This document shows, one piece after another, positions 19,000 to 47,953 of a DNA stretch of 64,000 nucleotides (position 1 is the first letter of the stretch; the number at the start of each line of letters is the position of its first letter). A program made the translations under genes and the position numbers. The notes under the pieces were generated by a model. That model had not been told where the DNA came from. It made no database searches and was given only the letters and a program-made list of their open reading frames with translations. The stretch covers positions 930,001 to 994,000 of the forward strand of contig NZ_CP118157.1 in the NCBI RefSeq assembly GCF_032878875.1, in the 5' to 3' direction. The DNA comes from Microbacterium sp. AB (lineage in GTDB: Bacteria > Actinomycetota > Actinomycetes > Actinomycetales > Microbacteriaceae).

Positions 19000-19791
19000 T
19001 CAGAGCCGTTCTTCGAGGGGTCGGCCCTCGAGGTATCCGAGGCTCTGCGAGATCGATGCGGCGGTGTCGACGACAGCGCTCACCAGATAGTCGAGGCGCG
19101 TCGGGTCGAGCTGCCCTCCGGGAGCGTCGACGCTGATGCAGAACGCATACTTCACGCGCCCCTTCGGGTCGCGGATGGGTGCCGAGATCCCCACCGTGTT
19201 CGGTGTGATCTCCCCGGTGCTCACCCAGTGGTGCGTTCCCTGGATCTGCGTGAGCATCTCGCGGATCCGGTCGGGCTCGACGGGCGTCGCCTCCGTGTAG
19301 CGGCTCAGGGGCGCGGCGAGCACCTCGTCCACGAACGGGTCGTCCTGGAACGCGAGGATCGACTTCCCGGCGCCCGCGTGGAGGCCGATCGTGTCGCCGA
19401 TCTCCACGGTCACCTCGGTGTCGCTGTTCACGTCCAGGCGGTCGACGCAGAGGTAGCGATGTCCGCGCATCGAGTACAACAGCGCCACTTCGCCGGTGCT
19501 CTCCGCTGCGCGCACCAGGTGCCTCCGCGCGACGGCGACCAGAGACTTGCTCTTCACGGACCGGCCGAGCGCGACCGCGGCCGGTCCCAGGAGGTAGGGT
19601 CCTCGTTCCTCCGGCTGTTCGAGGAAGCCGCGCTGCTCCAGCGATCGGACGATGCGATAGACGACCGCCTTGTTCAGGTCGAGGTGGCGGGCGAGGTCGC
19701 TCAGCCCCCAGCTCGAACGGTGGATGAACGCCTCGAGGACCGAGAGCGCACGCTCGATCCCGAGCAGGGTGTTGTTCTTCGAATCCGTCAT
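19000..19791 (-). CDS. IclR family transcriptional regulator
   Basis: A 263-residue protein with an N-terminal winged helix (about residues 8-70, ALSVLEAFIHRSSWGLSDLA, then LNKAVVYRIVRSLEQRGFLE as recognition helix) and a C-terminal IclR effector domain containing GLHAGAGKSILAF and ISAPIRDPKGRVKYAFCIS. The start ATG overlaps the stop of the class V aminotransferase gene (ATGA). It sits inside the operon it probably controls; the palindromes at 23734-23756 and 23795-23809 around the operon promoter are candidate binding sites. The effector is likely a substrate or product of the two PLP enzymes. Confidence 0.9.
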   Translation of the reverse strand: MTDSKNNTLLGIERALSVLEAFIHRSSWGLSDLARHLDLNKAVVYRIVRSLEQRGFLEQPEERGPYLLGPAAVALGRSVKSKSLVAVARRHLVRAAESTGEVALLYSMRGHRYLCVDRLDVNSDTEVTVEIGDTIGLHAGAGKSILAFQDDPFVDEVLAAPLSRYTEATPVEPDRIREMLTQIQGTHHWVSTGEITPNTVGISAPIRDPKGRVKYAFCISVDAPGGQLDPTRLDYLVSAVVDTAASISQSLGYLEGRPLEERL

Positions 19792-21020
19792 GGTTCCTCT
19801 GTGTCCTCTTTCGCCTCGTCGCCGAGTGTCGTCAGTTCAGAGACCAGCGCTGCGACCTCGTCCGAGGAGTTGAAGTAGTGCGCCGATGCTCTGACCACGC
19901 TCTCGAGCCCGCGCCGGGGAAGGTCCCAGCGTGAGGATCTCGCGCGTGAGACGCTCACGTTGATGCGTCTCTGTCTCAGCGAGGACATGATTCTGTCAGG
20001 TGACACCCCTGTGAGCGTGAAGGAGACGATCCCGCAGTGGCGAGCGCCCTGGTCGGCGATGGTGACGCCGGGGACTTCGCGCAGTGCGTCCCGCAGCTCT
20101 GTGCCGCGCCGCAGGACGCTCGCTTCGATCGCGCTCATTCCCAGGCCGAGCGCGTAGTCGGCGGCGGCGCCCAGACCGAGCAGGTTCGCGTAGTTCTTCT
20201 CCCACGTCTCGTATCGGATGGCAGTGCTCGCCAACTCGTACTCGCCAGGGCTCAGCCAGGTGGCGGAGCGCCCATCGAGGAACGCCGGCTCGAAGAGCGC
20301 CATCGCCTCCGATCTGACGTACGCGAATCCTGTGCCGCGCGGGCCACGTAGGTACTTCCGTCCGGTGCCCGTGAGCACGTCGCAGTGGAGTCGCGCGACC
20401 GAGAGGTCGAGCTGTCCGACGGACTGGCACGCATCGAGGAGGAACAGGACGCCGGCCTCGCGGCACAGCTCGCCGATCCGCTCCGCGGGATTGACGAGCC
20501 CGCCCTGGGTGGGGATGTGGTTCATCGTCATGAGGCGAGTTCGCGGCTTGCCGAGCTCTTCCTCGAGTCGACGGAGGTCGATCTGGCCGTCGGGATCGTT
20601 CTCGACGACGACGATCTCGCCGCCTGTCTGCTTCGCGCGGTGGAGGTAGGCGATCGCGTTGCCGCCGTACTCGGACATGCAGGTGATGATGCGGTCGCCT
20701 GGGGCGAGGGCCAGGCCGTAGAAGACCATGTCCCAGGCGCGGGTCGCGCTGTCGGCGAGGGCGATCTCATCGGCGGACGCGCCGATCAGCTGGGCCAGCG
20801 ATGAGTACACGGCCGAGATCTGCGGTTCGAACGCCTCCCGTGCCTCGTAGCCGCCGAAGCGCTCCTCGAAGTCGATGTAGCCCTTCACCGTGTCTGTCAC
20901 CGTCTTCGGCGGAAGCGAGCATCCCGCGTTGTTGAAGTGGGCGACGTCGTGCACCCCCCGTGTGTCGTCCCGTACGGAGGCGAGATCGACGCGCGACGCG
21001 ACGTCCATCGCCTCAAACAC
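19788..21020 (-). CDS. Class V aminotransferase / cysteine desulfurase-like PLP enzyme
   Basis: The 410-residue protein has the class V PLP fold: [10 protein letters not shown] near the N-terminus, the [20 protein letters not shown] segment, [16 protein letters not shown] with the PLP Asp, and [20 protein letters not shown] with the Schiff-base Lys. This last motif ([13 protein letters not shown]) is found in EgtE-like ergothioneine C-S lyases and related sulfurtransferases rather than in IscS/SufS. No catalytic Cys loop of SufS type is obvious. Overlap of 8 bases with the ABC ATPase stop shows it belongs to the transporter operon. Activity on a sulfur or beta-substituted amino acid is inferred; epimerase or kynureninase-like chemistry cannot be excluded. 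Confidence 0.75.
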
Positions 21021-35683: not shown

Positions 35684-37180
35684 GGCGGGTTCAACCGGTC
35701 GTTGCAACACCGGGTTGTTGAAGTGAGCGTAGCTGCTCCTCGAACACTTCGGCGGGGGTGCGCCAGTCGAGGCTCTTGCGGGGCCTGTTGTTCAGCGCGA
35801 GGGCGACTGCTTCGAGGTCCTCGGCGGACCATCGTGAGAGGTCCGTGCCCTTCGGGAAGTACTGACGCAGCAGCCCGTTGGTGTTCTCGTTCGTCGGCCG
35901 CTGCCAGGGCGAGTGGGGGTCGGCGAAGAACAGCTTCGTGCCCGTCTCGAGCGCGAACTGGGCATGCGCGGAGAGTTCCTTGCCTCGATCCCAAGTGAGG
36001 GTCTTGCGGAGCTGTTCGGGAAGCTTCGTCATCGACGCGATGAGAGCGGCGTTCATCGCGACGGCGCCATAGCCGCCCAGCGCGGGCCCGTTCTTCACGG
36101 GCGGCGTCTCGCCATAGCCTTCAAGGCGCGGCAGATGCACCAACAGAGTCGAGCGGCTCTTGCGCTCGACGATCGTGCCGATCGCGGACCGGCCCGTGCC
36201 GATGATCAGATCGCCCTCCCAATGCCCCGGGACGGCGCGGTCCGCGGCCTCCGCAGGACGTTCGGAGAACACGACATCCGCAGTGACATGCCCTTGCGGG
36301 CGGTTCTGCGCTCGAGCCCGTGGCCGTCGTAGCGCGCGGCCAGTTCGCAGGCAGGTGACGAGCTCGCGCCCCAGTGCTCCACGGCCCTGGATGAACAACG
36401 ACTGGTAGATCGCCTCGTGGCTGATGCGCATGGACTCATCATCCGGGAAGTCGACCTTCAGCCGGTGCGAGATCTGCTCCGGACTCCACGCAGTCGCCCA
36501 CCGCCGATCTTGCCGATGCGGCTTGTTCAACCCCTTCCACGCAGGCGGCTCAGGCCCGACGACGATGCTGCCATCGGGTCGGCGGACGTTGCCAGCGAGG
36601 CGCTCCTGAACGTACTCGCGCAGCTTGTCGTTGGTCGCGAGCCTCACCATCTTTGGGCGCTTCGCCGCCTGCTGCGCCTTCCACTGCGCCACCAACGCCC
36701 GATACTCCGGCTTCCCGCCCCGGGTGGCCGCGTTGCGACGCAGTTCGCGGGAGACCGTCCCCGGGTCGCGGCCGATGCTGCGAGCGATCTCACGCACCCC
36801 GACCTGCTTGGCGCGCAGTATCGCGATCTCCTCACGCTCCTCGAATGACAGGTAGCGGCCGGTGGGCTCGGCAAGCGAGATCGGTGGCATGCCCCCAGCG
36901 TGGCGAAACCAGCGGGCTCCGACCGGGACGGACACGCCCACCTTCAGCGCCGCCTCGGCCGAGTTGATGCCCGTCGCAACCAGACGCCAGAACTGCCGCT
37001 GCACCGCCCGCGAGGGCTCAGGCCGCCCAGGCGAGCACATCGGCGGACGCAACGCCCTGTCCGCACGCCACTGTCGCCGAGCCCCCTCAGGAACCTCGCT
37101 CGTCTTCGCAGACCAGTACTTCGTCGCCACCGCTGAACACCTCCACGATCGAGGTGTTGCGACAACCAGTTGAATCAGCC
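35684..37180 (-). mobile_element. Complete IS30-family insertion sequence inserted in an IS3 remnant
   Basis: The 1497-bp element has imperfect terminal inverted repeats of about 28 bp. The left end begins GGCGGGTTCAACCGGTCGTT, and the reverse complement of the right end begins GGCTGATTCAACTGGTTGTC, both continuing into GCAACACC (about 23 of 28 identical). It is flanked by a 3-bp direct repeat CTG (35681-35683 and 37181-37183), and removing the element plus one CTG restores the IS3 reading frame (HHSDRGVQ joined to YRAIRYTERL). One transposase gene fills it. The intact gene and clean duplication suggest a recent insertion. Confidence 0.9.
35691..37130 (-). CDS. IS30-family transposase
   Basis: The 479-residue protein is full length. 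The N-terminal helix-turn-helix reads LSFEEREEIAILRAKQVGVR, then EIARSIGRDPGTVSRELRRN. The DDE catalytic core is complete: GHWEGDLIIGTG (Asp), LTWDRGKELSAH (Asp) and RPTNENTNGLLRQYFPKG (Glu), followed by NNRPRKSLDWRTPAEVF. These are diagnostic for IS30. No frameshift is seen, so the enzyme is probably active. Confidence 0.95.
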   Translation of the reverse strand: MATKYWSAKTSEVPEGARRQWRADRALRPPMCSPGRPEPSRAVQRQFWRLVATGINSAEAALKVGVSVPVGARWFRHAGGMPPISLAEPTGRYLSFEEREEIAILRAKQVGVREIARSIGRDPGTVSRELRRNAATRGGKPEYRALVAQWKAQQAAKRPKMVRLATNDKLREYVQERLAGNVRRPDGSIVVGPEPPAWKGLNKPHRQDRRWATAWSPEQISHRLKVDFPDDESMRISHEAIYQSLFIQGRGALGRELVTCLRTGRALRRPRARAQNRPQGHVTADVVFSERPAEAADRAVPGHWEGDLIIGTGRSAIGTIVERKSRSTLLVHLPRLEGYGETPPVKNGPALGGYGAVAMNAALIASMTKLPEQLRKTLTWDRGKELSAHAQFALETGTKLFFADPHSPWQRPTNENTNGLLRQYFPKGTDLSRWSAEDLEAVALALNNRPRKSLDWRTPAEVFEEQLRSLQQPGVATTG

Positions 37181-38156: not shown

Positions 38157-38630
38157 TCAGGCGTCGATGCCGAGTTCGCGCCGGAGACGAGCCACATGGC
38201 CCGTGGCCTTGACGTTGTAGAGCGCCTTCACGACGACGCCCTCCTCGTCGAGCACGAGCGTCGAGCGGATGACGCCCTCGATCACCTTGCCGTAGTTCTT
38301 CTTCTCGCCCCACACGCCGTAGGCGCGGTGCACGGCGGTGTCCGGGTCGCTCAGCAGCGTGAACGTCAGGCCGTCGCGCTCGCGGAACGTCGCGAGCTTC
38401 GCGGGCTCGTCCCGCGAGACGCCGAGCACGGTGTAGCCGGCGGCGGCGAGCGAGGAGATGCTGTCGCGGAAGTCGCAGGCCTGCGTCGTGCAGCCGGGCG
38501 TCATCGCCGCAGGGTAGAAGTACAGGACGACCTTCCCGCCGCGCAGGTCGGAGAGCGAGACGCTCTCGCCGTCCTGGTCGAGGAGCGTGAAGTCGGGAGC
38601 GACGGAACCGGGTTCGAGGCGTGAAGTCAT
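38157..38630 (-). CDS. bcp: Bcp/PrxQ-type thiol peroxidase
   Basis: A 157-residue peroxiredoxin that reduces hydroperoxides with thioredoxin-type donors. The core reads LRGGKVVLYFYPAAMTPGCT, then TQACDFRD: the peroxidatic Cys in TPGCT and a resolving Cys five residues later, the 1-Cys-like or atypical 2-Cys arrangement of PrxQ. Length and ends are normal. It is divergent from the radical SAM gene, so the 264-base gap contains promoters for both. Confidence 0.93.
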   Translation of the reverse strand: MTSRLEPGSVAPDFTLLDQDGESVSLSDLRGGKVVLYFYPAAMTPGCTTQACDFRDSISSLAAAGYTVLGVSRDEPAKLATFRERDGLTFTLLSDPDTAVHRAYGVWGEKKNYGKVIEGVIRSTLVLDEEGVVVKALYNVKATGHVARLRRELGIDA

Positions 38631-38894
38631 AGCCGTCCCAGCCTACCGATCGCCTCGTGTCTGAAGGGGCTGGATCTGAGCCCGCCCCGACATCGCCCCC
38701 CGGGTGCGCCGGCAACAGACCCGAAACATGCTGTTAGCGCACTAATAATTAGGGCTCAATAATCTTTCTGCATGACGTCGACTCCTGTCATCGCCGAGAC
38801 GCGCGGGCCGCACGAAACAGGATCTTCTCTCCGCGAAACAGAAAGGAAGTCTGGTCGTAGCCAATCCGAAACACGATCTCCGTCTACTGGAGGC
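38631..38894 (+). promoter_or_regulatory. Divergent promoter region of the nitrogen-starvation gene cluster
   Basis: No gene is visible in these 264 bases. An AT-rich block, CACTAATAATTAGGGCTC (38740-38757) and the bases after it, stands out in the GC-rich context and probably holds promoter elements. GAAAC occurs at 38723, 38814, 38835 and 38868; the copies at 38814 and 38835 sit in a repeated CGAAACAG with a 21-bp period, two helical turns. GAAAC is the b-half of actinobacterial GlnR sites, but the paired GTNAC with 6-base spacing is not clear here. TGGAGGC precedes the ATG at 38895. Confidence 0.4.
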
Positions 38895-39989
38895 ATGACA
38901 CCCGCCATCCCCCTCGCAGCCGACAGCCCGGAACGCGTCTCCACCCGGGTGAACATCGCTCTTCTCGGCGTCCGCAGCGACGCTCCCGTCCGCCGCACGG
39001 GCGGTGCCGGCCCGAGCGACGACGGCCACTTCGTCGTGGACGGCGACGGGGCGGCCATCCCGCTCAATCCCGACAGCCCCTACGTCGTCACCAGTCGCGG
39101 GCGTCTGACCCTCGACGGCGCAGACCTCGGGCTCGACGTGTCTCCCGTGATCCGCCCACGCTTCTACGACCTCGTCACGGCCGACGGGGTCTCGTACGAC
39201 AAGATCGCGAAGCTGCACGGCAAGGACGTGCTGGCCACCACCGTGGTGCAGACCTGCGTGCGCTACGACGAGAGCGAGCGCTGCCGCTTCTGCGCGATCG
39301 AGGCCTCGCTCGACGCGGGGACGACGGTCGCCGTGAAGACCCCCGCGATGCTCGCCGAGGTCGCAGAGGCCGCGGTGCGGCTGGACGGCGTGACGCAGAT
39401 GGTCATGACGACGGGCACCTCGAACGGATGGGACCGAGGCGCCAAGCACCTCGCGCGCTGCGTGAAGGCGGTCAAGGCCGCGGCGCCGGGGCTCGGCGTC
39501 CAGGTGCAGTGCGAGCCGCCGGCCGACCTGCGGGCGATCGCAGATCTGTACGAGGCCGGAGCGCGCTCGATCGGCATCCACGTCGAGTCGATGGACGACG
39601 AGGTCCGCCGGCGCTGGATGCCCGGCAAGTCGCGCGTGAGCATGGACGACTACCGGTCGGCGTGGCGCGAGGCGGTGCGCGTCTTCGGCTGGAACCAGGT
39701 GTCGACCTATCTCATCGTCGGGATGGGGGAGGACCCGGACGAGCTCGTGGAGGGCGCGCGCGAGCTCATCGAGATGGGCGTGTACCCGTTCGTCGTCCCG
39801 TTCCGCCCGCTCAAGGGCACCCTCGCCACGGATGTCGATCACGTGCCCGCACCGCACCGGGCGGTCCTGAACCGCGTCACCGGTCGCGTCGCCGCGCTGC
39901 TCCAGGCGGCGGGCATGCGCGGCGAGGACCAGAGCGCGGGTTGCGCCGCCTGCGGCGCGTGCAGCGTCTTGAAGACGGCGGGGGCGTGA
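38895..39989 (+). CDS. nitD: MSMEG_0568/Sll0785-family radical SAM protein (Nit1C NitD)
   Basis: The 364-residue protein resembles biotin synthase-like radical SAM enzymes. The cluster-binding cysteines are Cys121, Cys130 and Cys133 in CVRYDESERCRFCAIE, a CX8CX2C spacing instead of the common CX3CX2C. Barrel strands follow (MVMTTGTSNGWDRG; IGIHVESMDDEVRR). The C-terminus carries an extra CAACGAC, maybe an auxiliary cluster site. It is the first gene of the cluster and carries a good ribosome binding site. The family is found in cyanobacteria and actinobacteria and in Nit1C loci linked to cyanide use; the reaction is unknown to me. Confidence 0.88.
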   Translation: MTPAIPLAADSPERVSTRVNIALLGVRSDAPVRRTGGAGPSDDGHFVVDGDGAAIPLNPDSPYVVTSRGRLTLDGADLGLDVSPVIRPRFYDLVTADGVSYDKIAKLHGKDVLATTVVQTCVRYDESERCRFCAIEASLDAGTTVAVKTPAMLAEVAEAAVRLDGVTQMVMTTGTSNGWDRGAKHLARCVKAVKAAAPGLGVQVQCEPPADLRAIADLYEAGARSIGIHVESMDDEVRRRWMPGKSRVSMDDYRSAWREAVRVFGWNQVSTYLIVGMGEDPDELVEGARELIEMGVYPFVVPFRPLKGTLATDVDHVPAPHRAVLNRVTGRVAALLQAAGMRGEDQSAGCAACGACSVLKTAGA

Positions 39990-39990
39990 C

Positions 39991-41394
39991 GTGTTCGAGG
40001 TCCCGGCGCTGACCGGGCCTCCGCGGCGGGCGCGCGTCGCCGTCTGGAGCGTCGTACGGGCCGATCGTGCGCAGGCGGACGCCTACCGCGCGATCCGGCG
40101 CGAGGTGTTCGTCGCCGAGCAGGGGATCTTCGCGTCCGACGACCGCGACCGCATCGACGACGACCCGCGGACGATCGTGCTCGTCGCGGTCGGCGACGAC
40201 GGCGACGTCCTGGGCGGTGTCCGGCTGTCTCCCGCCGTGGAAGGACGCGACATCGGCTGGTGGACGGGCAGCCGGCTCGTCGTGCGGCGCGGGGCGCGGC
40301 ACGCGGGCGGGATCGGATCGGCCCTCGTGCGCCGCGCATGCGCCGAGGCGCTCGATCGCGGCGTGCTGCGCTTCGAGGCGAACGTGCAGGAGCGCAACGC
40401 GCCGCTCTTCCGTCACCTCGGCTGGGTCCCGTGGGGGAGCGCCGACATCGAGGGCGTGCCGCACGTGCGCATGCGATGGCCCATCGACCGCATCGGCTCG
40501 CTCGTCACGGCGACGAAGCAGCCCCTCGGCGACCTTCTCCTCGGCCTCAGGGGCGATTCGCCATCCGCCCTCGGCGGACACGGCTACGTCGGCGACGACG
40601 GCGCCCCGGTGCCGGGCAGCGACCTGGTCGCGGCGTGCGACGCCATCCTCCCGGCGCTCATTGAGCGCGATCCGGAATGGGCCGGATGGTGCGGGGTCCT
40701 CGTGAACGTCAACGACCTCGCGGCGATGGGGGCGGATCCCACGGGCCTGCTCGACGCGGTCGCCGCTCCCACCGCCTCCCTGGTGCGCCGCATCCTGGCG
40801 GGCGTGCGCAGCGCGGCGCAGGCCTGGGGCGTCCCCGTCCTCGGCGGGCACACCCAGCTCGGCTCCCCCTCGGCGCTCGCCGTGACGGCCCTCGGCCGGA
40901 CGCGCCATCCCGTGCCCGGCGGGGGCGGCAGGCCCGGAGACGCGCTGAGCCTGACCGTCGACGTGACCGGTCGATGGCGGCGAGGGTTCGAGGGGCGCCA
41001 GTGGGACAGCACCTCCGCGCGCACCGGCGCGGAGCTGCGGCATCTCGGCGCGCTCGTGCGCGAAGCCCGGCCCGCCGCCGCGAAGGACGTCAGCATGGCG
41101 GGGATCGTCGGCACCGCCGCGATGCTCGCCGAGTCGTCCGGGACGGGCGCCGTCGTCGAGGTCGGCGCGATCCCCGCGCCCGCCGAGGCGTCCTTCGGCG
41201 ACTGGCTCACATGCTTCCCGGGCTTCGGGATGCTCACCGCCGATGCGCCGGGCCGATCGCGCATGTCGGGCCCCCACGCCGAGACCGCCGCGATCGGTGC
41301 GCTCACGCCGGGCTCCGGCGTGACGCTGCGATGGCCCGATGGCGTCGAGACGGACGCCGCCGGGCAGGCGACCGGTCTCGGGGCGGTGACGTAA
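39991..41394 (+). CDS. GNAT-AIR synthase-like fusion (MSMEG_0567 / Sll0786-Sll0787 type)
   Basis: The 467-residue protein has an N-terminal GNAT domain (about 15-165; YRAIRREVFVAEQGIF and GARHAGGIGSALVRRACAEA, the acetyl-CoA loop) and a C-terminal PurM/AIR synthase-like ATP-binding domain (about 185-460; VLVNVNDLAAMGADPTGLLD, VPVLGGHTQLGSPSALAVTA, then CFPGFGMLTAD). In cyanobacteria and pseudomonads these are separate proteins; fusion is known in mycobacterial loci. The start GTG is one base after the previous stop. The combination suggests acetyl transfer and phosphoryl activation of one intermediate. Confidence 0.85.
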   Translation: MFEVPALTGPPRRARVAVWSVVRADRAQADAYRAIRREVFVAEQGIFASDDRDRIDDDPRTIVLVAVGDDGDVLGGVRLSPAVEGRDIGWWTGSRLVVRRGARHAGGIGSALVRRACAEALDRGVLRFEANVQERNAPLFRHLGWVPWGSADIEGVPHVRMRWPIDRIGSLVTATKQPLGDLLLGLRGDSPSALGGHGYVGDDGAPVPGSDLVAACDAILPALIERDPEWAGWCGVLVNVNDLAAMGADPTGLLDAVAAPTASLVRRILAGVRSAAQAWGVPVLGGHTQLGSPSALAVTALGRTRHPVPGGGGRPGDALSLTVDVTGRWRRGFEGRQWDSTSARTGAELRHLGALVREARPAAAKDVSMAGIVGTAAMLAESSGTGAVVEVGAIPAPAEASFGDWLTCFPGFGMLTADAPGRSRMSGPHAETAAIGALTPGSGVTLRWPDGVETDAAGQATGLGAVT

Positions 41395-41412
41395 CGCAGT
41401 CTCTTTCCGAAC

Positions 41413-41452
41413 GAAACCATCACGAAACATCCGGCGGTGACGCTGGAGACAC
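41413..41452 (+). promoter_or_regulatory. Candidate GlnR-type half-site pairs upstream of the MSMEG_0572-like gene
   Basis: GAAAC (41413-41417), six bases, GAAAC (41424-41428), then GTGAC (41437-41441), six bases, GACAC (41448-41452). The actinobacterial GlnR consensus is GTNAC-N6-GAAAC, so the second pair matches 9 of 10 half-site positions and the first keeps the spacing. They lie 46-85 bases before the ATG at 41498 in a 103-base gap, the longest inside the cluster. Nitrogen control would fit the gene family. Confidence 0.4.
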
Positions 41453-41497
41453 GCTCCACCTCCTCCGACCCAGGCCCCACCGACAGAAGGAACGGTC

Positions 41498-42025
41498 ATG
41501 ACCGACGACATCGACGCCCAGATCGCCGAGAACATCGCCACGTCCCTCGGCGAGATCCCCCACCCGTCCCTCCCGCAGGGCAGCAACATCTACGGCTCGA
41601 CCAAGCTCTTCCCCGACTTCCAGGCGGAGGACGGCGAGACGTACTTCACGCTCGTCCACGGCATCCCGCACGAGTCGTCCGTGAGCTTCGTCGCGATCCT
41701 GCAGGCCACGCGCGCGCTGCGGAAGGGGTTCGAGTCGGCGATCTATTTCTACGGCCCCGGCACGCTCGCCGTCAGCGCGAACCGCGGGTTCCCGACGACG
41801 GGCGACTCGGGCTTCCCCGGCGAGCTCAACACGAACGCGTCGCTCGAGACCTTCATCAAGGAGGGCGGGACGGTCTACGCCTGCCGCTTCGGGCTGGCGC
41901 TCCACGGCATCCGCGAGGAGGACCTCATCGCGGGCGTCATCCCCGCCCATCCCCTCGACGTCCAGGACGCCCTCATCTACTACGCGCGCAAGGGCGCGAT
42001 CATCAACTCCACCTACAACCTCTGA
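41498..42025 (+). CDS. nitB: MSMEG_0572/Sll0783-family nitrogen starvation response protein (NitB)
   Basis: The 175-residue protein is highly conserved in Nit1C loci. Recognisable parts are YGSTKLFPDFQAEDGETYFT, VAILQATRALRKGFESAIYF and NTNASLETFIKEGGTVYACR. No catalytic motif is known to me; the fold may resemble DsrE-like proteins (single domain, FGLALHGI). It starts a second transcription unit or continues the first after a 103-base gap, with AGAAGGAACGGTC before its ATG. Its conserved linkage to the nitrilase suggests a shared pathway step. Confidence 0.85.
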   Translation: MTDDIDAQIAENIATSLGEIPHPSLPQGSNIYGSTKLFPDFQAEDGETYFTLVHGIPHESSVSFVAILQATRALRKGFESAIYFYGPGTLAVSANRGFPTTGDSGFPGELNTNASLETFIKEGGTVYACRFGLALHGIREEDLIAGVIPAHPLDVQDALIYYARKGAIINSTYNL

Positions 42026-42033
42026 GGCTCCCG

Positions 42034-42936
42034 ATGTCCGTCACCGTCGCATCCGTCTCGGCCAACTTCACCCGGGACCTGGAGCAGAACTACGCGCTCA
42101 TCGCACAGCTTCTCGACGACGCGCGCGATCGGGGCACGGAGCTCGTCGCCTTCCCCGAGGCCGCTATCGGCGGCTACCTGTCGTCGCTCGGCAACCACGG
42201 CGACACCGTCAAGAGCACCCGGCGGTCGCTCCCTCCCGCCATCCGGCTCGACGGCCCGGAGATCGCCCGGGTCCAGGAGCTCGCGGGCGACACCGTCGTC
42301 ACGATCGGGTTCTGCGAGCTCGACGACGACGGCGAGACGCGCTACAACGCCGCGGTGTGCCTCGACGGCGGGACCGTCTACGGCTCGTACCGGAAGGTGC
42401 ACCAGCCCCTCGGCGAGAACATGTCGTACTCGGCGGGCTCCGAGTACCGCGCGTTCGACACCCCCGTCGGCCGCCTCGGCATGCAGATCTGCTACGACAA
42501 GGCCTTCCCCGAGGCGGCGCGGATGCTCGCCCTCGACGGCGCGGAGATCGTCGTGAGCATGTCGGCCTGGCCCGCGGCGCGCACCGCGACGGCCGAGGAT
42601 CTGCAGGACGACCGCTGGACGTACCGGTTCAACCAGTTCGACATCGCCCGCGCCCTCGACAACCAGGTGTTCTGGATCGCCTCGAACCAGTCGGGGACGT
42701 TCGGCTCCCTGCGCTACGTCGGCAACGCGAAGGTCGTCGACCCGGGCGGGAACGTCCTCGCGACGACGCTGCTCGGCGCGGGGCTCGCGGTGGCGGAGAT
42801 CGACGTCGACGAGACGTTCCGGGCCATGCGCGGCGGCATGTTCCACCTGCGCGATCGCCGTCCCGACGTCTACGGGGCGATCGCCGAGGCCGATGCCCGG
42901 CACGTCAACGGATGGCGGGAGCTCGCCCATGCCTGA
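42034..42936 (+). CDS. nitC: Nit1C-type nitrilase
   Basis: The 300-residue carbon-nitrogen hydrolase has the complete catalytic triad: Glu42 in VAFPEAAIGGYL, Lys121 in SYRKVHQPLGE and Cys153 in GMQICYDKAFPE. It resembles the Sll0784/Nit6803-type and NitC nitrilases that convert nitriles to acids and ammonia. In Pseudomonas fluorescens NCIMB 11764, NitC is required for growth on cyanide. It starts 9 bases after nitB and its last bases overlap the next gene. Another homologue without these residues is encoded at 44513. Confidence 0.92.
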   Translation: MSVTVASVSANFTRDLEQNYALIAQLLDDARDRGTELVAFPEAAIGGYLSSLGNHGDTVKSTRRSLPPAIRLDGPEIARVQELAGDTVVTIGFCELDDDGETRYNAAVCLDGGTVYGSYRKVHQPLGENMSYSAGSEYRAFDTPVGRLGMQICYDKAFPEAARMLALDGAEIVVSMSAWPAARTATAEDLQDDRWTYRFNQFDIARALDNQVFWIASNQSGTFGSLRYVGNAKVVDPGGNVLATTLLGAGLAVAEIDVDETFRAMRGGMFHLRDRRPDVYGAIAEADARHVNGWRELAHA

Positions 42937-43228
42937 GATGACGTTCGCCGTGCGGTGGCCGGACGGCCGGGAGACGTCGCACTACTCTCCGAGCCTCGTC
43001 GTGCACGACTACCTCGAGACCGGCGGCCGCTACCCGGTCTCCGACTTCGTCTCGCGGTCGAGCGAGGCGCTCCGCGTCGCGAGCGAGCGGGTGCGGGCGA
43101 CCTTCGGCTTCGCGTGCACCTCCGCCGCGCATTCCGAGGAGACCATCGCCGCCGCGGCCGCGGCGTACGACGACGGCGACGTCGAGGTGCTCCGGATGGA
43201 GCCCGCCCTGCCGCAAGGAGCATCATGA
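42929..43228 (+). CDS. MSMEG_0570-family nitrogen starvation response protein
   Basis: A 99-residue protein starting MPEMTFAVRWPDGRETSHYS with the conserved SLVVHDYLETGGRYPVSDFV, the hallmark of this small family found only in these clusters. No enzymatic motif is visible; it may be a partner or carrier subunit. Its start lies inside the nitrilase gene (8-base overlap) and its stop overlaps the flavin oxidoreductase start (ATGA), so it is tightly coupled to both. Confidence 0.85.
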   Translation: MPEMTFAVRWPDGRETSHYSPSLVVHDYLETGGRYPVSDFVSRSSEALRVASERVRATFGFACTSAAHSEETIAAAAAAYDDGDVEVLRMEPALPQGAS

Positions 43229-44484
43229 TCCCCGTCACGCTCGACGAGAACGCCCATTTCGAGGCCGTCGTCGTCGGCGGCGGGCAGGCGGGCCTCTCCG
43301 TCAGCCGTCACCTCCTGGAGCACGGCGTGTCGCACGTCGTCATCGAGCGGGACTCGGTGGCGCACGAATGGCGGGACGGGCGGTGGGACGCCTTCACCCT
43401 CGTCACGCCGAACTGGCACTGCCGCCTTCCGGGATACGCCTACGACGGCGACGACCCGGACGGCTTCATGACGCGCGACGAGGTCTACGCGTGGGTGCGC
43501 CGGTACGCCGACACGTTCGACGCGTCCGTCGCGGAGGGCGTCTCCGTGCAGCGGGTCTCGCAGCGGGTCGGCGGGGGCTTCGTCGTGGAGACGAGCGCGG
43601 GGACGATCACGGCGGACACCGTCACCTCGGCGACGGGCGGATACCACGTGCCCGTCGTGCCCGGCTGGGCGGCGCGGATCCCGGAGCGCGTCCGCCAGGT
43701 GCACTCGCACCGCTACCGCAACGCGGGGGAGCTGCCCGACGGCCCCGTGCTCGTCGTCGGCTCCGGGCAGTCGGGGACGCAGATCGCGGAGGACCTCCTC
43801 CTCGCGGGCCGCGAGGTGCACCTCGCGCTCGGCAGGGCGCCGCGCGTGGCACGCTTCTACCGCGGGAAGGACTGCATGACCTGGCTCGCGGAGATGGGCG
43901 TGTACGACGTGCCCGTCTCGACGAGGGGACTGGCCAAACGCGAGTCGACGAACCACTACGTCACGGGCCGCGACGGCGGGCGCGACATCGACCTGCGGAG
44001 CTTCGCGCTGCGCGGCATGGCCCTCTACGGCCGCGCCGTGGGGCTCGACGGCGGGACGGTGCGCTTCGACGACTCCCTCGCGGCGGACCTCGACCACGCG
44101 GACTCCGTGGCGGAGTCGATCAAGGACGACATCGACGCGTACATCGCGCGCTCCGGGATCGACGCCCCCGCGGAGGAGCGGTACACGCCGGTGTGGACGC
44201 CGGCCGACGTCCCGCGGTCGCTCGACCTCGACCGTGTCGGGAGCATCGTGTGGGCGATCGGGTTCCGGGCCGACTGGTCGTGGCTGGGGGACCTCGACGT
44301 CCTCGACGCCGAGGGCCATCCCGCGCACGAGAGGGGGCGGACGAGCGTCCCGGGCTTCCAGCTCGTCGGCCTGCCGTGGCTGCACACCTGGGGATCGGGC
44401 CGCTTCCACGCGATCGCCGAGGACGCCGAGCACGTGGCGGGGCTCGTCGCCGGTCGCGTGCGAGAGAGGGCGGGGGCCGCGTGA
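43225..44484 (+). CDS. nitH: MSMEG_0569-family flavin-dependent oxidoreductase (NitH)
   Basis: The 419-residue protein has two Rossmann dinucleotide folds: VVVGGGQAGLSVSRHLLEHG for FAD at the N-terminus and VLVVGSGQSGTQIAEDLLLA for NAD(P)H at about residue 170, the layout of class B flavin monooxygenases and their relatives. FTLVTPNWHCRLPG and WAIGFRADWSWL fit. It would oxidise or hydroxylate a nitrogen-containing intermediate. It is coupled upstream by ATGA and followed after 28 bases by the second nitrilase homologue. Confidence 0.87.
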   Translation: MIPVTLDENAHFEAVVVGGGQAGLSVSRHLLEHGVSHVVIERDSVAHEWRDGRWDAFTLVTPNWHCRLPGYAYDGDDPDGFMTRDEVYAWVRRYADTFDASVAEGVSVQRVSQRVGGGFVVETSAGTITADTVTSATGGYHVPVVPGWAARIPERVRQVHSHRYRNAGELPDGPVLVVGSGQSGTQIAEDLLLAGREVHLALGRAPRVARFYRGKDCMTWLAEMGVYDVPVSTRGLAKRESTNHYVTGRDGGRDIDLRSFALRGMALYGRAVGLDGGTVRFDDSLAADLDHADSVAESIKDDIDAYIARSGIDAPAEERYTPVWTPADVPRSLDLDRVGSIVWAIGFRADWSWLGDLDVLDAEGHPAHERGRTSVPGFQLVGLPWLHTWGSGRFHAIAEDAEHVAGLVAGRVRERAGAA

Positions 44485-44512
44485 GCGTGCGCCCTGCCTC
44501 TACCCTGGGGGA

Positions 44513-45370
44513 ATGGTCTCCGTGACGCTGGCCGCCGTCGCCGCCCACTTCGGACGCGATGTGAATCGCACGCTCGCGAAGCTCCCCGGCGTCGTCGGCC
44601 AGGCGCGCGAGCGCGGCGTCGACCTGCTCGTGCTCCCCGATGCGACGATCGGCGGCTACCTCCTCGACCTGCACCACCCGGTCGAGGAGGGCGACGGCTT
44701 CCCGCACTCCGTCGATCTGGACGGCCCCGAGGTGAGGGCGGTCGTGGAGCTCGCGGGCGACATGACGGTGTGCTTCGGCATCGCCGAGCGCGCCGTCGTC
44801 GACGGCGTCGAGGTCCGCTACAACACGGCCGTCTGCGTGACGGGCGACGGCATCCTGGGGACGCATCGCAAGGTGCATCTCCCGCTCGGGGAGTCCGAGG
44901 TCTACCGGGCGGGAGACGAGTTCCGCGCGTTCGACACCCCCGTCGGGCGGATCGGGATGCTCATCGACTTCGACAAGACCTTCCCGGAGTCCGCGCGCTC
45001 CCTTGCCCTCGACGGCGCGGAGGTCATCGCCTGCCTGAGCGCCTGGCCCGCGAGCGTCACCGATCGCTCCGACCGCATCCGCAACGACCGTCAGGCGCAC
45101 CTGTTCGACCTCTACGACTGCGCCCGCGCGGCCGAGAACCAGGTCTACGTCGTCTCGGCGAACCAGACCGGCGTGCTCGGCGGGCTGCGCTTCCTCGGGC
45201 AGGCGAAGGTCGTCGATCCCGCAGGCGAGATCATCGCCAAGACGTGGGCCAAGGGCGGTCTCGCCGTGGTCGAGGCCGACGTGTCGGCCACCATCGCACG
45301 AGCGCGCCGCTCGCTCGACCACATCCATCAGCGTGCCGAGCACGCCTACCGCTTCACGGCGACCGCCTGA
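44513..45370 (+). CDS. Nitrilase-fold protein lacking the catalytic Glu and Cys
   Basis: The 285-residue protein aligns over its length with the cluster nitrilase, but the catalytic positions differ: Glu42 is Asp43 (LVLPDATIGGYL), Lys is kept (Lys120, THRKVHLPLGE) and Cys153 is Asp152 (MLIDFDKTFPE). Flanking motifs (RAFDTPVGRIG, ALDGAEVIACLSAWPA) are well preserved, so the fold is maintained. It is thus probably a pseudoenzyme or a hydrolase with altered chemistry. A TACCCT -10 element ends 6 bases before the ATG, suggesting its own leaderless mRNA. Confidence 0.88.
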   Translation: MVSVTLAAVAAHFGRDVNRTLAKLPGVVGQARERGVDLLVLPDATIGGYLLDLHHPVEEGDGFPHSVDLDGPEVRAVVELAGDMTVCFGIAERAVVDGVEVRYNTAVCVTGDGILGTHRKVHLPLGESEVYRAGDEFRAFDTPVGRIGMLIDFDKTFPESARSLALDGAEVIACLSAWPASVTDRSDRIRNDRQAHLFDLYDCARAAENQVYVVSANQTGVLGGLRFLGQAKVVDPAGEIIAKTWAKGGLAVVEADVSATIARARRSLDHIHQRAEHAYRFTATA

Positions 45371-45420
45371 TCCGACCGTCCGCTCGCGATCGGCGCCGCC
45401 TCCCACGACAAGGAGCGCGC

Positions 45421-46560
45421 ATGCGCATCGCGCAGGTCACGTACTCGACGAAGCCCCGGGGCGGCGTCGTCCACACCCTCGCCCTCGCCGAGACGCTCGC
45501 ACGACGAGGGCACGAGGTCGAGGTGTGGACGCTCGGCCGCGGCGACGACACGGCGTTCTTCCGTGACGTGGACCCTCTTGTCGACGTGCGCGTGGTGCCT
45601 TTCGCGCACCGGGACGGGGAGGACGTGGGTGATCGCATCGAGCGGTCCATAGCGGTGATGGCCGGAGCGTTCGAGACGACGGCCGACATCGTCCACGCGC
45701 AGGACTGCATCTCGGCCAACGCCGTGGTCGACAGCGGCGCGTCGTGCGTCCGGACGATCCACCACCTGGACGCGTTCACGACGCCGAGGCTTGTGGAGTG
45801 CCACGAGAGGGCGATCACCGAGCCGGTCGCCCGCCTGTGCGTCTCCCGCGCGGTCGCCGCCGAGGTCGACGCCGCGTACGGGCTCTCGCCGTCGGTGATC
45901 CCCAACGGCGTCGACGCGTCGCGCTTCGCGGCGGCGGCGGGCCCCGACGGCGCGGCCGCGCGCGAGCGCTGGCTCGGCGACCTCGGCGACTACGCGCTCG
46001 CACTCGGCGGCATCGAGCCGCGCAAGGGATCGATCGACCTGCTGGAGGGATACGCCCTCGTCCGCGAGCGGCATCCCGGTCTCCGGCTCGTGTTCGGCGG
46101 AGGGGAGACGCTGTTCGACTACCGGCCCTACCGTGAGCGGTTCGAGGAGCGCGCCGGGGAGCTCGGCGTCGAGCCGATCGTCCTCGGGACGCTGCGCGAC
46201 GACGACGTGCCGTCGCTCGTCGCGGCGGCGCGCGTGCTGGGGTTCGTCTCGACGAAGGAGGGCTTCGGGCTCGCGGCGATGGAGGCGCTCGCCGCGGGCG
46301 TCCCCGTCGTCGCGCGATCGCTGCCCGTGGTGCAGGAGGTCTTCGGCGGCGCCGTCGCCTACGCGACCGATCCCGGGGACATCGCGGAGCGCATCGGCGA
46401 GGTCCTCCGGGGGCGTGCGCCGGATCCGGCCGCGGGCAGGGCGCTGGCCGCGAGACACACCTGGGAGGCTGCGGCCGAGAAGCACGAGAGGTTCTACGAC
46501 GCGGTTCGCGACGGGGGAGGCGACGGCGGTGCGGCGATCGATCTCGCGGATCCTCGCTGA
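45421..46560 (+). CDS. MSMEG_0565-family glycosyltransferase (GT-B)
   Basis: The 379-residue family 4-type glycosyltransferase has KPRGGVVHTLALAETLARRG (acceptor loop) at the N-terminus, GGIEPRKGSIDLLEGYAL in the middle and STKEGFGLAAMEALAAGVPV, the E-X7-E donor motif, at about 280-300. A sugar-carrying final product or carrier is therefore likely for the cluster. It follows AAGGAGCGCGC and its 3' end overlaps the acyl-adenylating enzyme by 32 bases. Confidence 0.87.
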   Translation: MRIAQVTYSTKPRGGVVHTLALAETLARRGHEVEVWTLGRGDDTAFFRDVDPLVDVRVVPFAHRDGEDVGDRIERSIAVMAGAFETTADIVHAQDCISANAVVDSGASCVRTIHHLDAFTTPRLVECHERAITEPVARLCVSRAVAAEVDAAYGLSPSVIPNGVDASRFAAAAGPDGAAARERWLGDLGDYALALGGIEPRKGSIDLLEGYALVRERHPGLRLVFGGGETLFDYRPYRERFEERAGELGVEPIVLGTLRDDDVPSLVAAARVLGFVSTKEGFGLAAMEALAAGVPVVARSLPVVQEVFGGAVAYATDPGDIAERIGEVLRGRAPDPAAGRALAARHTWEAAAEKHERFYDAVRDGGGDGGAAIDLADPR

Positions 46561-47953
46561 CCGTGCCGCCGAGGCGCCCGACGAGGTCGTCGTCGCGGAC
46601 GACGACGGCGCGCTCACGGCGGCGCAGCTGGACGAGGCGGCCACGCGGCTGGCCCACGCGCTCGTCCGGGAAGGGGTGCGACGCGACGACCTCGTGACCG
46701 TGACGCTCCCCAACGGGCGGGACTTCGTCGTGGCATGCGCCGCGATCTGGCGCGCGGGCGCGACGCCTCAGCCGGCCTCGCGCGCCCTGAGCGCCGAGGA
46801 GAGGGCCGCGCTGGAGGCGACCGCCCGCCCCGCCGCGGCGATCGGACGACGGCCGGAGACGCCGGGGATCGCGTGGTTCCCGGGCGTCGCCGCACCGCCG
46901 GCGGCGGGCGCCCTCCCCGATCTCGCCGCGTCGTCGTGGAAGGCGCCCGCCACCTCCGGCTCGACCGGACGTCCGAAGATCGTGATGGCGTCGGGCCCCG
47001 CACTGCTCGACCCGACGAGGCCCGTCGCCGCGTTCCTGCCCGTGCGCGCCGTGCAGCTCGTCGCCGGCCCCCTGACGCACTCGGCGACCTTCACGTACGC
47101 GTTCCGCGGTCTGCTCACGGGGCACCGCCTCGTCGTGCTGCCCGCCTTCGACGAGCACCGCTGGATCGACGCGGTCGAGCGGCACGGCGTGACGTGGGCG
47201 CTCGTCGTGCCGACCATGATGCACCGTCTGCTCCGGCTGCCCTCGGGCGAACGCGCGCCGGAGCGCGTGCGGACGATCGAGTCGGTGCTGCACATGGGGG
47301 CGCCGTGCGCCCCCGGCCTCAAGCGCGCGTTCCTCGACTGGCTCGGCCCGGAGCGGGTCGTGGAGGTGTACGCGGGCAGCGAGTCGAACGGGCTGACCAT
47401 GATCCGCGGCGACGAGTGGATCGGGCATCCCGGGAGCGTCGGCCGGCCCGTCGGGGGCACGGAGCTCCAGATCCGCCGCGCGGACGGAACGCGCGCGCGG
47501 CCCGGGGAGGAGGGGGAGGTGTGGATGCGTCGGGGCGCGGAGCCGGCCTACCGCTATCTCGGGGCGCCGTCGCGGCGCGACGACGACGGATGGGACACGC
47601 TGGGAGACGTGGGTCTCCTCGACGAAGAGGGCTATCTGCATCTCCTGGACCGCGTCGACGACGTCATCAACCGCGGAGGGGAGAAGGTCTATCCCGTCGA
47701 GATCGAGAGCGCGATCGAGCGTCATCCCCTCGTGCGCGGCGCGGTGGCGTTCGGCGTGCCCGACGCCGAATGGGGCGAGCGCATCGCCACGGTCGTGGAT
47801 GTCGCCGACGCTGCCGTCGGCCCCGGCGAGCTCGAGGCCTGGATGCGGGAGCGTCTCGGTGCGCGTGCGCCCGAGAGCGTTCGCGTCGTCCACGAGCCCG
47901 TGCGCGACGACGCGGGCAAGACGTCCCGCGCCCGATGGCGTTCGCGCCTCTGA
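46529..47953 (+). CDS. AMP-dependent acid-CoA ligase / acyl-adenylating enzyme
   Basis: The 474-residue ANL-superfamily enzyme shows ATSGSTGRPKIVMA (A3, P-loop), EVYAGSESNG (A5), GDVGLLDEEGYLHLLDRVDD with VINRGGEKVYP (A7-A8) and DDAGKTSRARW at the C-terminus with the A10 Lys. It is a little short but complete. It activates a carboxylic acid as an adenylate, then as a CoA or amide. The GTG at 46529 after GGGGGAGGCGACGGC is the likely start. It may act on the acid formed by the nitrilase, which is inference. Confidence 0.85.
   Translation: MRRSISRILADRAAEAPDEVVVADDDGALTAAQLDEAATRLAHALVREGVRRDDLVTVTLPNGRDFVVACAAIWRAGATPQPASRALSAEERAALEATARPAAAIGRRPETPGIAWFPGVAAPPAAGALPDLAASSWKAPATSGSTGRPKIVMASGPALLDPTRPVAAFLPVRAVQLVAGPLTHSATFTYAFRGLLTGHRLVVLPAFDEHRWIDAVERHGVTWALVVPTMMHRLLRLPSGERAPERVRTIESVLHMGAPCAPGLKRAFLDWLGPERVVEVYAGSESNGLTMIRGDEWIGHPGSVGRPVGGTELQIRRADGTRARPGEEGEVWMRRGAEPAYRYLGAPSRRDDDGWDTLGDVGLLDEEGYLHLLDRVDDVINRGGEKVYPVEIESAIERHPLVRGAVAFGVPDAEWGERIATVVDVADAAVGPGELEAWMRERLGARAPESVRVVHEPVRDDAGKTSRARWRSRL

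Follow-up and report, generated by a model that had tools for sequence, protein, structure and literature searches.

A gpr-type Nit1C cluster in Microbacterium sp. AB carries a fixed aspartate twin of its nitrilase and is a candidate biosynthetic operon of nitrogen starvation

Within a 64,000-nucleotide stretch of the single-contig, 3.64 Mb genome of Microbacterium sp. AB (positions 930,001 to 994,000; hereafter the window), nine genes on the forward strand together span 38,895-47,953 and almost certainly represent the actinobacterial form of the Nit1C gene family, known as MSMEG_0565-0572 or gpr. We consider the best overall explanation, at a probability of roughly 40%, to be a GlnR-controlled biosynthetic operon for a small, possibly sulfur-containing and redox-linked metabolite, in which the second of two nitrilase homologues (nit2) would act as a non-hydrolytic partner of the first (nit1). 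Nit1C was described in 2005 (Podar 2005, PMC1199592) and gpr in 2018 (PMC6039565), and in the excerpts of the published reports drawn on here and below these clusters are read as serving cyanide use or redox defence. As the initial annotation of the stretch had stated, the core is a known one and no established product is on record: for neither Nit1C nor gpr did we find one in open-licence literature, and the compound name viridisamide led only to papers on cyanobactin-type peptides and was set aside. The cluster is of a known kind, in its actinobacterial form; with it come a fixed pseudo-nitrilase, for which we found no published description in open-licence literature, an optional ligase and a sulfur hypothesis.

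The nine genes and their family membership, as first annotated, are borne out by NCBIfam and Pfam scores, with six of the nine exceeding curated NCBIfam cut-offs (given in brackets after each score) and the ligase and two CN_hydrolase genes giving clear Pfam matches. In order, they encode a 364-residue NitD-like radical S-adenosylmethionine (SAM) protein of the MSMEG_0568 family (38,895-39,989; TIGR04043, 508 bits [303.7]); a 467-residue GNAT-AIR-synthase-like fusion corresponding to MSMEG_0567, with NitE and NitF fused (39,991-41,394; TIGR04050, 445 [312.2], and TIGR04045, 104 [68.5]); a 175-residue NitB-like protein of the MSMEG_0572/Sll0783 family (41,498-42,025; TIGR04044, 240 bits [109.9]); nit1, an intact 300-residue CN_hydrolase at the MSMEG_0571 position (42,034-42,936; PF00795, 147 bits); a 99-residue NitG-like MSMEG_0570 protein starting MPEM (42,929-43,228; TIGR04042, 119 bits [79.9]); a 419-residue NitH-like flavin-dependent oxidoreductase of the MSMEG_0569 family (43,225-44,484; TIGR04046, 585 bits [498.4]); nit2, a 285-residue CN_hydrolase homologue at the MSMEG_0566 position (44,513-45,370, alternative start 44,522; PF00795, 126 bits); a 379-residue GT4 glycosyltransferase of the MSMEG_0565 family (45,421-46,560; TIGR04047, 438 bits [259.9]); and an AMP-forming acyl ligase of the ANL family, about 474 residues long with an uncertain start codon (46,529-47,953; PF00501, 171 bits). 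The genes had been called mostly overlapping, which overstates the case: overlaps occur at three of eight junctions, the last one only if the ligase starts at 46,529, and the largest gap in the cluster, 103 bases at 41,395-41,497, precedes MSMEG_0572.

All eight gpr gene families are linked in the window, and the gpr operon of Mycobacterium smegmatis (PMC6039565, PMC3662644, PMC4222082) has the same eight, including two CN_hydrolases and the glycosyltransferase, together with GlnR-type boxes. The window differs in gene order, with the radical SAM and fusion genes placed ahead of MSMEG_0572, nit1, MSMEG_0570, MSMEG_0569, nit2 and the glycosyltransferase gene, in having a GlnR-type box before each part of the cluster, and in one extra ligase. 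Of the "extended" cluster first proposed, the ligase alone is thus an addition; the glycosyltransferase and second nitrilase homologue occupy the published MSMEG_0565 and MSMEG_0566 positions and belong to the published eight. A Rhodococcus plasmid carries these eight and has no ligase gene. With Nit1C (Podar 2005, PMC1199592) and the nitA-H genes of pseudomonads (PMC11049912) the window shares homologues of NitB, NitD, NitE, NitF, NitG and NitH, that is, open reading frames 1 and 3-7 of Nit1C, as judged by NCBIfam cut-offs. It departs from them in that the subfamily 1 (Nit6803/NitC) nitrilase is replaced by another branch plus a non-catalytic twin, the GNAT and AIR synthase domains are fused, a glycosyltransferase is regularly present, and GlnR-type boxes stand where the pseudomonad cluster has a sigma-54-dependent regulator gene.

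Proteins of the window and of reference loci were searched for in 80 named actinobacterial loci, which had been picked by their radical SAM protein as the best 80 among 589 confirmed ones, including a full-length subset of 57 loci, each of at least 20.9 kb; because loci were ranked by similarity of this protein to that of the window, the counts apply to the window's closer relatives. The MSMEG_0572, radical SAM, fusion, nit1, MSMEG_0569 and glycosyltransferase genes were present in all 57 full-length loci, nit2 in 56 (L093 is without it), MSMEG_0570 in 48 at more than 60 bits, and the ligase in 20 at more than 200 bits (21 at more than 60 bits), an arrangement far beyond what chance would explain. 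Conserved linkage of the supposed extra genes, on which the initial annotation had hinged, is accordingly strong for nit2, while the ligase is optional. Between the window's radical SAM protein and its counterparts in named Microbacterium loci, identity is 85-87%. Among 396 genomes drawn evenly from the phylum, the window's own included, 28 had a radical SAM match at 1e-60, 24 of them above the cut-off, and the more distant loci of that draw (L123-L137) were without nit1 and nit2. Within the genus, 16 of 295 genomes, again including the window's own, carried the cluster. Given these low genome counts and the constant gene set, the cluster is tight yet patchy in distribution.

The members of the nitrilase pair differ in their active sites. 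In nit1 the catalytic residues E42, K121, E128 and C153 are intact, and Glu-Lys-Glu-Cys was present in all 89 nit1 sequences, three of which (L120, L121 and L122) fall outside the nit1 clade. The corresponding residues of nit2 are D43, K120, E127 and D152; glutamate is replaced by aspartate at 43 and cysteine by aspartate at 152, with the lysine and second glutamate retained, in agreement with the earlier remark that this homologue lacks catalytic residues. Aspartate occupied the nucleophile position in 81 of 82 readable sequences from the loci (83 in total, one truncated) and in all of the best 120 database matches among 4216 at E≤1e-10. The lysine was kept in 82 of the 82 and the second glutamate in 81, and the first glutamate position held Asp in 77, His in 2, and Tyr, Gly and Glu in one each. 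The sequence with Glu, L118, is also the lone exception at the nucleophile: it is an intact enzyme with no second homologue of the kind seen in its cluster, and it groups outside the nit2 clade, beside L120 and L121, which likewise have one intact enzyme each. In a tree of 66 sequences (64 of 172 plus two outgroups, root not resolved), nit2 formed one clade with support of 100/96. At the 95% level six columns, the catalytic ones among them, tell the two proteins apart, and nit2 has 58 invariant columns over 81 sequences. A fixed aspartate together with so many invariant columns has little of the look of decay. An active site of this kind, in which a subunit of nitrilase fold has aspartate fixed at the nucleophile position, is not known to us in the superfamily, and no published report of a cysteine-to-aspartate change in a nitrilase was found in open-licence literature.

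The closest homologues of nit2 all lie beside the cluster. In a survey of the 396 genomes, which scored no more than six candidates in each, seven genomes had matches at 56% identity or above, every one of them within 5 kb of the radical SAM gene; matches of 47-54%, taken by identity alone, were wider, and three genomes with them (G301, G337 and G385) had no radical SAM match. The Mycolicibacterium gene order runs from MSMEG_0572 down to MSMEG_0565, which places nit2 at the MSMEG_0566 position. MSMEG_0566 has been named an aliphatic amidase (PMC4617892, PMC6039565, in the excerpts drawn on), and the lack of a nucleophile in the counterparts compared here argues against that name for proteins of this type. 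Both nit1 and nit2 gave their best family scores with N-carbamoylputrescine amidase and PH0642-type nitrilases, where nit2 also finds its solved homologues, but the scores fall far below the family cut-offs and nit2 is without the cysteine of those enzymes.

Neither protein belongs to the Nit6803/NitC family that defines Nit1C, contrary to the initial assignment of the nitrilase: nit1 scored 37.8 bits and nit2 33.1 against a cut-off of 502.6. Across the window's whole genome no NitC-family nitrilase scored above the cut-off (best, 52.2 bits), whereas one control genome did with the same model, and the published cyanide chemistry is therefore not directly transferable. In eight plasmid loci of proteobacteria and cyanobacteria the nitrilase in the cluster is annotated as Nit6803 family in seven and as plain nitrilase in one, whereas that place is occupied, in the window as in its relatives, by a pair from a different branch of the superfamily. 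Among the 57 full-length loci a Nit6803 homologue was present in one (L033, Microbacterium testaceum NS283), as a separate nitrilase gene directly after the ligase (19,042-20,010, reverse strand; 39% identical to Nit6803). Plasmid records with an MSMEG_0568-like gene numbered 513, of which 373 were from Klebsiella, and most of the Klebsiella records listed had a Nit6803 nitrilase adjoining that gene.

These observations bear on a scavenging role, in which growth would draw on ammonia that nit1 frees from small amides or nitriles, with the other genes assisting. Such a role has been proposed for NitC in pseudomonads (PMC11049912, on pseudoalcaligenes and with a reported link in P. fluorescens) and for an Antarctic cyanobacterium (PMC9716671), to go by excerpts of those papers; it is compatible with GlnR control (PMC4222082, PMC3662644) and with the retained catalytic residues of nit1. 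However, a NitC-family nitrilase over the cut-off is absent from cluster and genome, none of the nine genes encodes a transporter, hydrolysis needs no radical SAM protein, AIR synthase, GNAT, glycosyltransferase or ligase, and the altered twin is nearly as regular as the active nitrilase (56 against 57 of 57). We regard scavenging as unlikely. The initial annotation had preferred synthesis over simple cyanide hydrolysis; the gene set is compatible with this preference, and we infer that the cluster is likely, on balance, to serve synthesis rather than catabolism.

If the cluster is biosynthetic, the radical SAM protein and MSMEG_0572 bear on its chemistry. The radical SAM protein carries a C-x8-C-x2-C motif and a C-terminal CxxCGAC; C121, C130 and C133 were conserved in all 110 sequences and C350, C353 and C356 in 109, the remaining one being a gap. 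Lipoyl synthases ranked first in both profile and fold comparisons (AlphaFold2 model, pLDDT 89.8), and extra conserved cysteines are common to both. In LipA the auxiliary-cluster cysteines are N-terminal, whereas those of the window protein are C-terminal, with no cysteine before residue 121, and its scores lie far below the LipA and LipS2 cut-offs (28.1 bits against 310.25 for the curated LipA model). The MSMEG_0572 protein has an invariant cysteine and appears, by alignment, to be related to DsrE: the window protein reached 18.8 bits against the PF02635 cut-off of 22.7, 38 of 42 relatives matched PF02635 at E≤1 (best, 3.1e-6), C129 was invariant in 42 of 42, and the cysteine aligned to one in the DsrE-like structure 3mc3 (E 0.088). 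It differs from the DsrE/DsrF family in forming its own subfamily (TIGR04044) and in that the cluster has no second DsrE-like gene.

A product containing sulfur is a tentative proposal that we place at clearly less than even odds. A sulfur-free product of a biosynthetic operon, with the radical SAM protein performing a dehydrogenation, a rearrangement or C-C bond formation and MSMEG_0572 serving as a structural or redox protein, seems a little less probable still. It draws on the same gene-set evidence, on the NifB, HydE, MqnE and biotin synthase entries that follow close behind the lipoyl synthases in the fold ranking, and on loci L133-L137, which retain the C-terminal cysteines without MSMEG_0572; against it stand the first rank of lipoyl synthases in both comparisons and the presence, among the core genes, of a probable DsrE relative whose invariant cysteine aligns with that family. 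L133-L137 are divergent TIGR04043 relatives (32-35% identical) that keep all six candidate iron-sulfur cysteines, and no other cluster gene was present in the stretches searched.

The remaining proteins gave the following matches. The nearest PDB entries to the AIR synthase part were ThiL (2.5e-10) and then HypE (1.3e-6), and the nearest to MSMEG_0569, in which C66 was invariant in 95 of 95, was the flavin monooxygenase-like 4usr (2.2e-17). MSMEG_0570 has a cysteine invariant in 38 of 38, and its confident AlphaFold2 model (pLDDT 93.9) had no Foldseek match in the PDB at E≤0.001. Single-sequence PDB searches with MSMEG_0572, MSMEG_0570, the radical SAM protein and the glycosyltransferase returned no match at the limits used. 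After TIGR04047, the glycosyltransferase scored best with MshA (48.6 bits) and BshA (46.5 bits). The best NCBIfam match of the ligase was BaiB, at 268 bits, under the cut-off of 650.

Around the constant core the tailoring genes vary, which gives the locus the look of a biosynthetic cluster. The ligase follows the glycosyltransferase in Microbacterium and Curtobacterium, and lies between MSMEG_0569 and the radical SAM gene in the ligase-bearing Gordonia loci. An Acetobacter locus has a glycosyltransferase and an AMP-binding gene of a different subfamily, which we rejected as an orthologue of the window's ligase (34% identity over 114 residues, C-terminal domain only). An Amidohydro_2 gene stands 47-193 bases upstream of MSMEG_0572 in 17 of the 57 full-length loci (30 of 80 overall), and between MSMEG_0572 and the radical SAM gene, or at that place, in nine of the ten deep-lineage loci L123-L132 (not L130); the copies at L124 (10,584-11,447) and L131 (10,557-11,417) had no NCBIfam match at 0.001. 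Since those 17 loci carry both genes, we rejected Amidohydro_2 as a straight replacement for nit1 and treat it as accessory; a search of the window's genome, made without a positive control, did not find it. A Pnap_2097 gene occurs at Agrobacterium, Methylocystis and Caballeronia loci, and the Agrobacterium protein also matches the LnmK acyltransferase/decarboxylase family. Behind the Caballeronia Nit1C genes come Pnap_2097 and, next to it, a methylmalonyl-CoA mutase gene (L139, 12,565-14,652), which perhaps furnish acyl groups for the product.

Control by GlnR is suggested by the intergenic sequence. The published M. smegmatis GlnR motif is Gn2AC-n6-GnAACA (PMC3662644), and the 64 kb contain only two exact matches, both on the forward strand and each in the gap preceding one cluster half: GCAAC-n6-GAAACA at 38,712-38,728, upstream of the first gene, and GAAAC-n6-GAAACA at 41,413-41,429, before MSMEG_0572. 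With 0.65 matches expected and two reached in 13 of 100 shuffles, it is the location and not the number that is informative. GAAAC half-sites on the same strand precede the first start codon, at -81, -60 and -27 (bases 38,814, 38,835 and 38,868, within 38,814-38,872); their positions are identical in L036, recur with further sites in L035, and are shared at -60 and -27 in L034, and the exact triple array occurs in 4 of 149 loci, the window's own genome (L001) included. Across 90 loci, counting only bases outside cluster-gene matches, 17 motif matches in 16 loci fell within 300 bases upstream of MSMEG_0572 or the radical SAM gene and 74 loci had none, a raw density about 26 times that elsewhere with base composition uncontrolled. 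In M. smegmatis, GlnR binding upstream of msmeg_0572 is reported from gel shift and chromatin immunoprecipitation sequencing in the excerpts of PMC4222082 and PMC3662644. Scans of the window for sigma-70 promoters and terminators gave nothing above chance. Probably, then, GlnR activates the cluster when nitrogen runs short, with transcription from two predicted promoters.

Under the biosynthetic reading, the AIR-synthase-like domain would activate an amide or carboxylate oxygen with ATP, and the GNAT domain would acylate an amine, with acyl-CoA coming from the ligase where one is present. The lipoyl-synthase-like radical SAM protein would functionalise a C-H bond, probably with sulfur from its C-terminal auxiliary iron-sulfur cluster, which the DsrE-like MSMEG_0572 may replenish through its invariant cysteine. 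The flavin enzyme would oxidise the product, nit1 would hydrolyse a C-N bond with release of ammonia, and the GT4 enzyme would attach a sugar. In this scheme nit2 has the nitrilase fold but would not hydrolyse; it would pair with nit1 and retain its Asp/Lys/Glu pocket for a binding or assembly function.

A direct redox module, close to what PMC6039565 proposes, would instead need no dedicated metabolite: the proteins themselves, chiefly the flavin oxidoreductase and the DsrE-like one, would hold peroxide down and NADPH up during nitrogen starvation. According to the excerpts drawn on, M. smegmatis becomes sensitive to peroxide when the operon is deleted and shows a higher NADPH/NADP when it is expressed (PMC6039565), and a Synechocystis sll0783 mutant lacks the NADPH rise (PMC3901256). 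Such a module leaves the radical SAM protein, AIR synthase, GNAT, nitrilase pair, glycosyltransferase and ligase in one conserved set unexplained, and the authors were unable to assign the phenotype to individual genes (PMC6039565); we hold it to be quite improbable.

Selenocysteine read-through has also been suggested for MSMEG_0571-0569 (PMC6039565, in the excerpts drawn on), by which the TGA of nit1 would be read as selenocysteine and fuse nit1 to the flavin oxidoreductase. Of 88 nit1 genes, 87 end in TGA, and the frame beyond it stays open for at least 513 codons in 42 of the 87 TGA cases, the window (515) among them. However, 66 of the 88 have the TGA set within the start sequence of the following gene, (A/G/T)TGCCTGA, with 52 having it inside ATGCCTGA (the MSMEG_0570 start) and 14 having GTG or TTG in place of ATG; in the window it is embedded in the MSMEG_0570 start at 42,929-42,936 (ATGCCTGAG). 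We attribute the conservation of the TGA to this overlap. For 45 of the 87, a further stop codon comes up in frame within 454 codons, open alternate frames are common at 69% G+C, and no SelB scored over the cut-off in the window's genome, the best match (197.7 bits against 242.25) being a 407-residue open frame that is probably another translation factor. Start overlap, closed frames and the absence of a SelB over the cut-off led us to reject read-through of nit1 for this genome; its probability is close to negligible.

The cluster is flanked by genes on the opposite strand. Upstream lie an AhpC/TSA peroxiredoxin gene (38,157-38,630) and, beyond it, a transposase-like open reading frame with HTH_38 and weak rve matches (35,691-37,130); downstream are open reading frames resembling an FAD amine oxidase, a short-chain dehydrogenase/reductase and an acyl-CoA dehydrogenase.

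On its broadest construction, which we put forward as a speculative and rather improbable extension, Nit1C/gpr would make a new low-molecular-weight sulfur metabolite common to nitrogen-starved cyanobacteria, proteobacteria and actinobacteria, built with a lipoyl-synthase-like radical SAM protein and a DsrE-type sulfur carrier, with a heteromer of the active nit1 and the aspartate-bearing nit2 carrying out the hydrolytic step in actinobacteria and the metabolite underlying the NADPH phenotypes in two phyla. The comparison argues against the selenoprotein proposal and frames three questions for the family: which of the proteins carries sulfur, whether the aspartate twin serves as a subunit or represents a new kind of enzyme, and whether a single metabolite may stand behind the NADPH phenotypes of two phyla.

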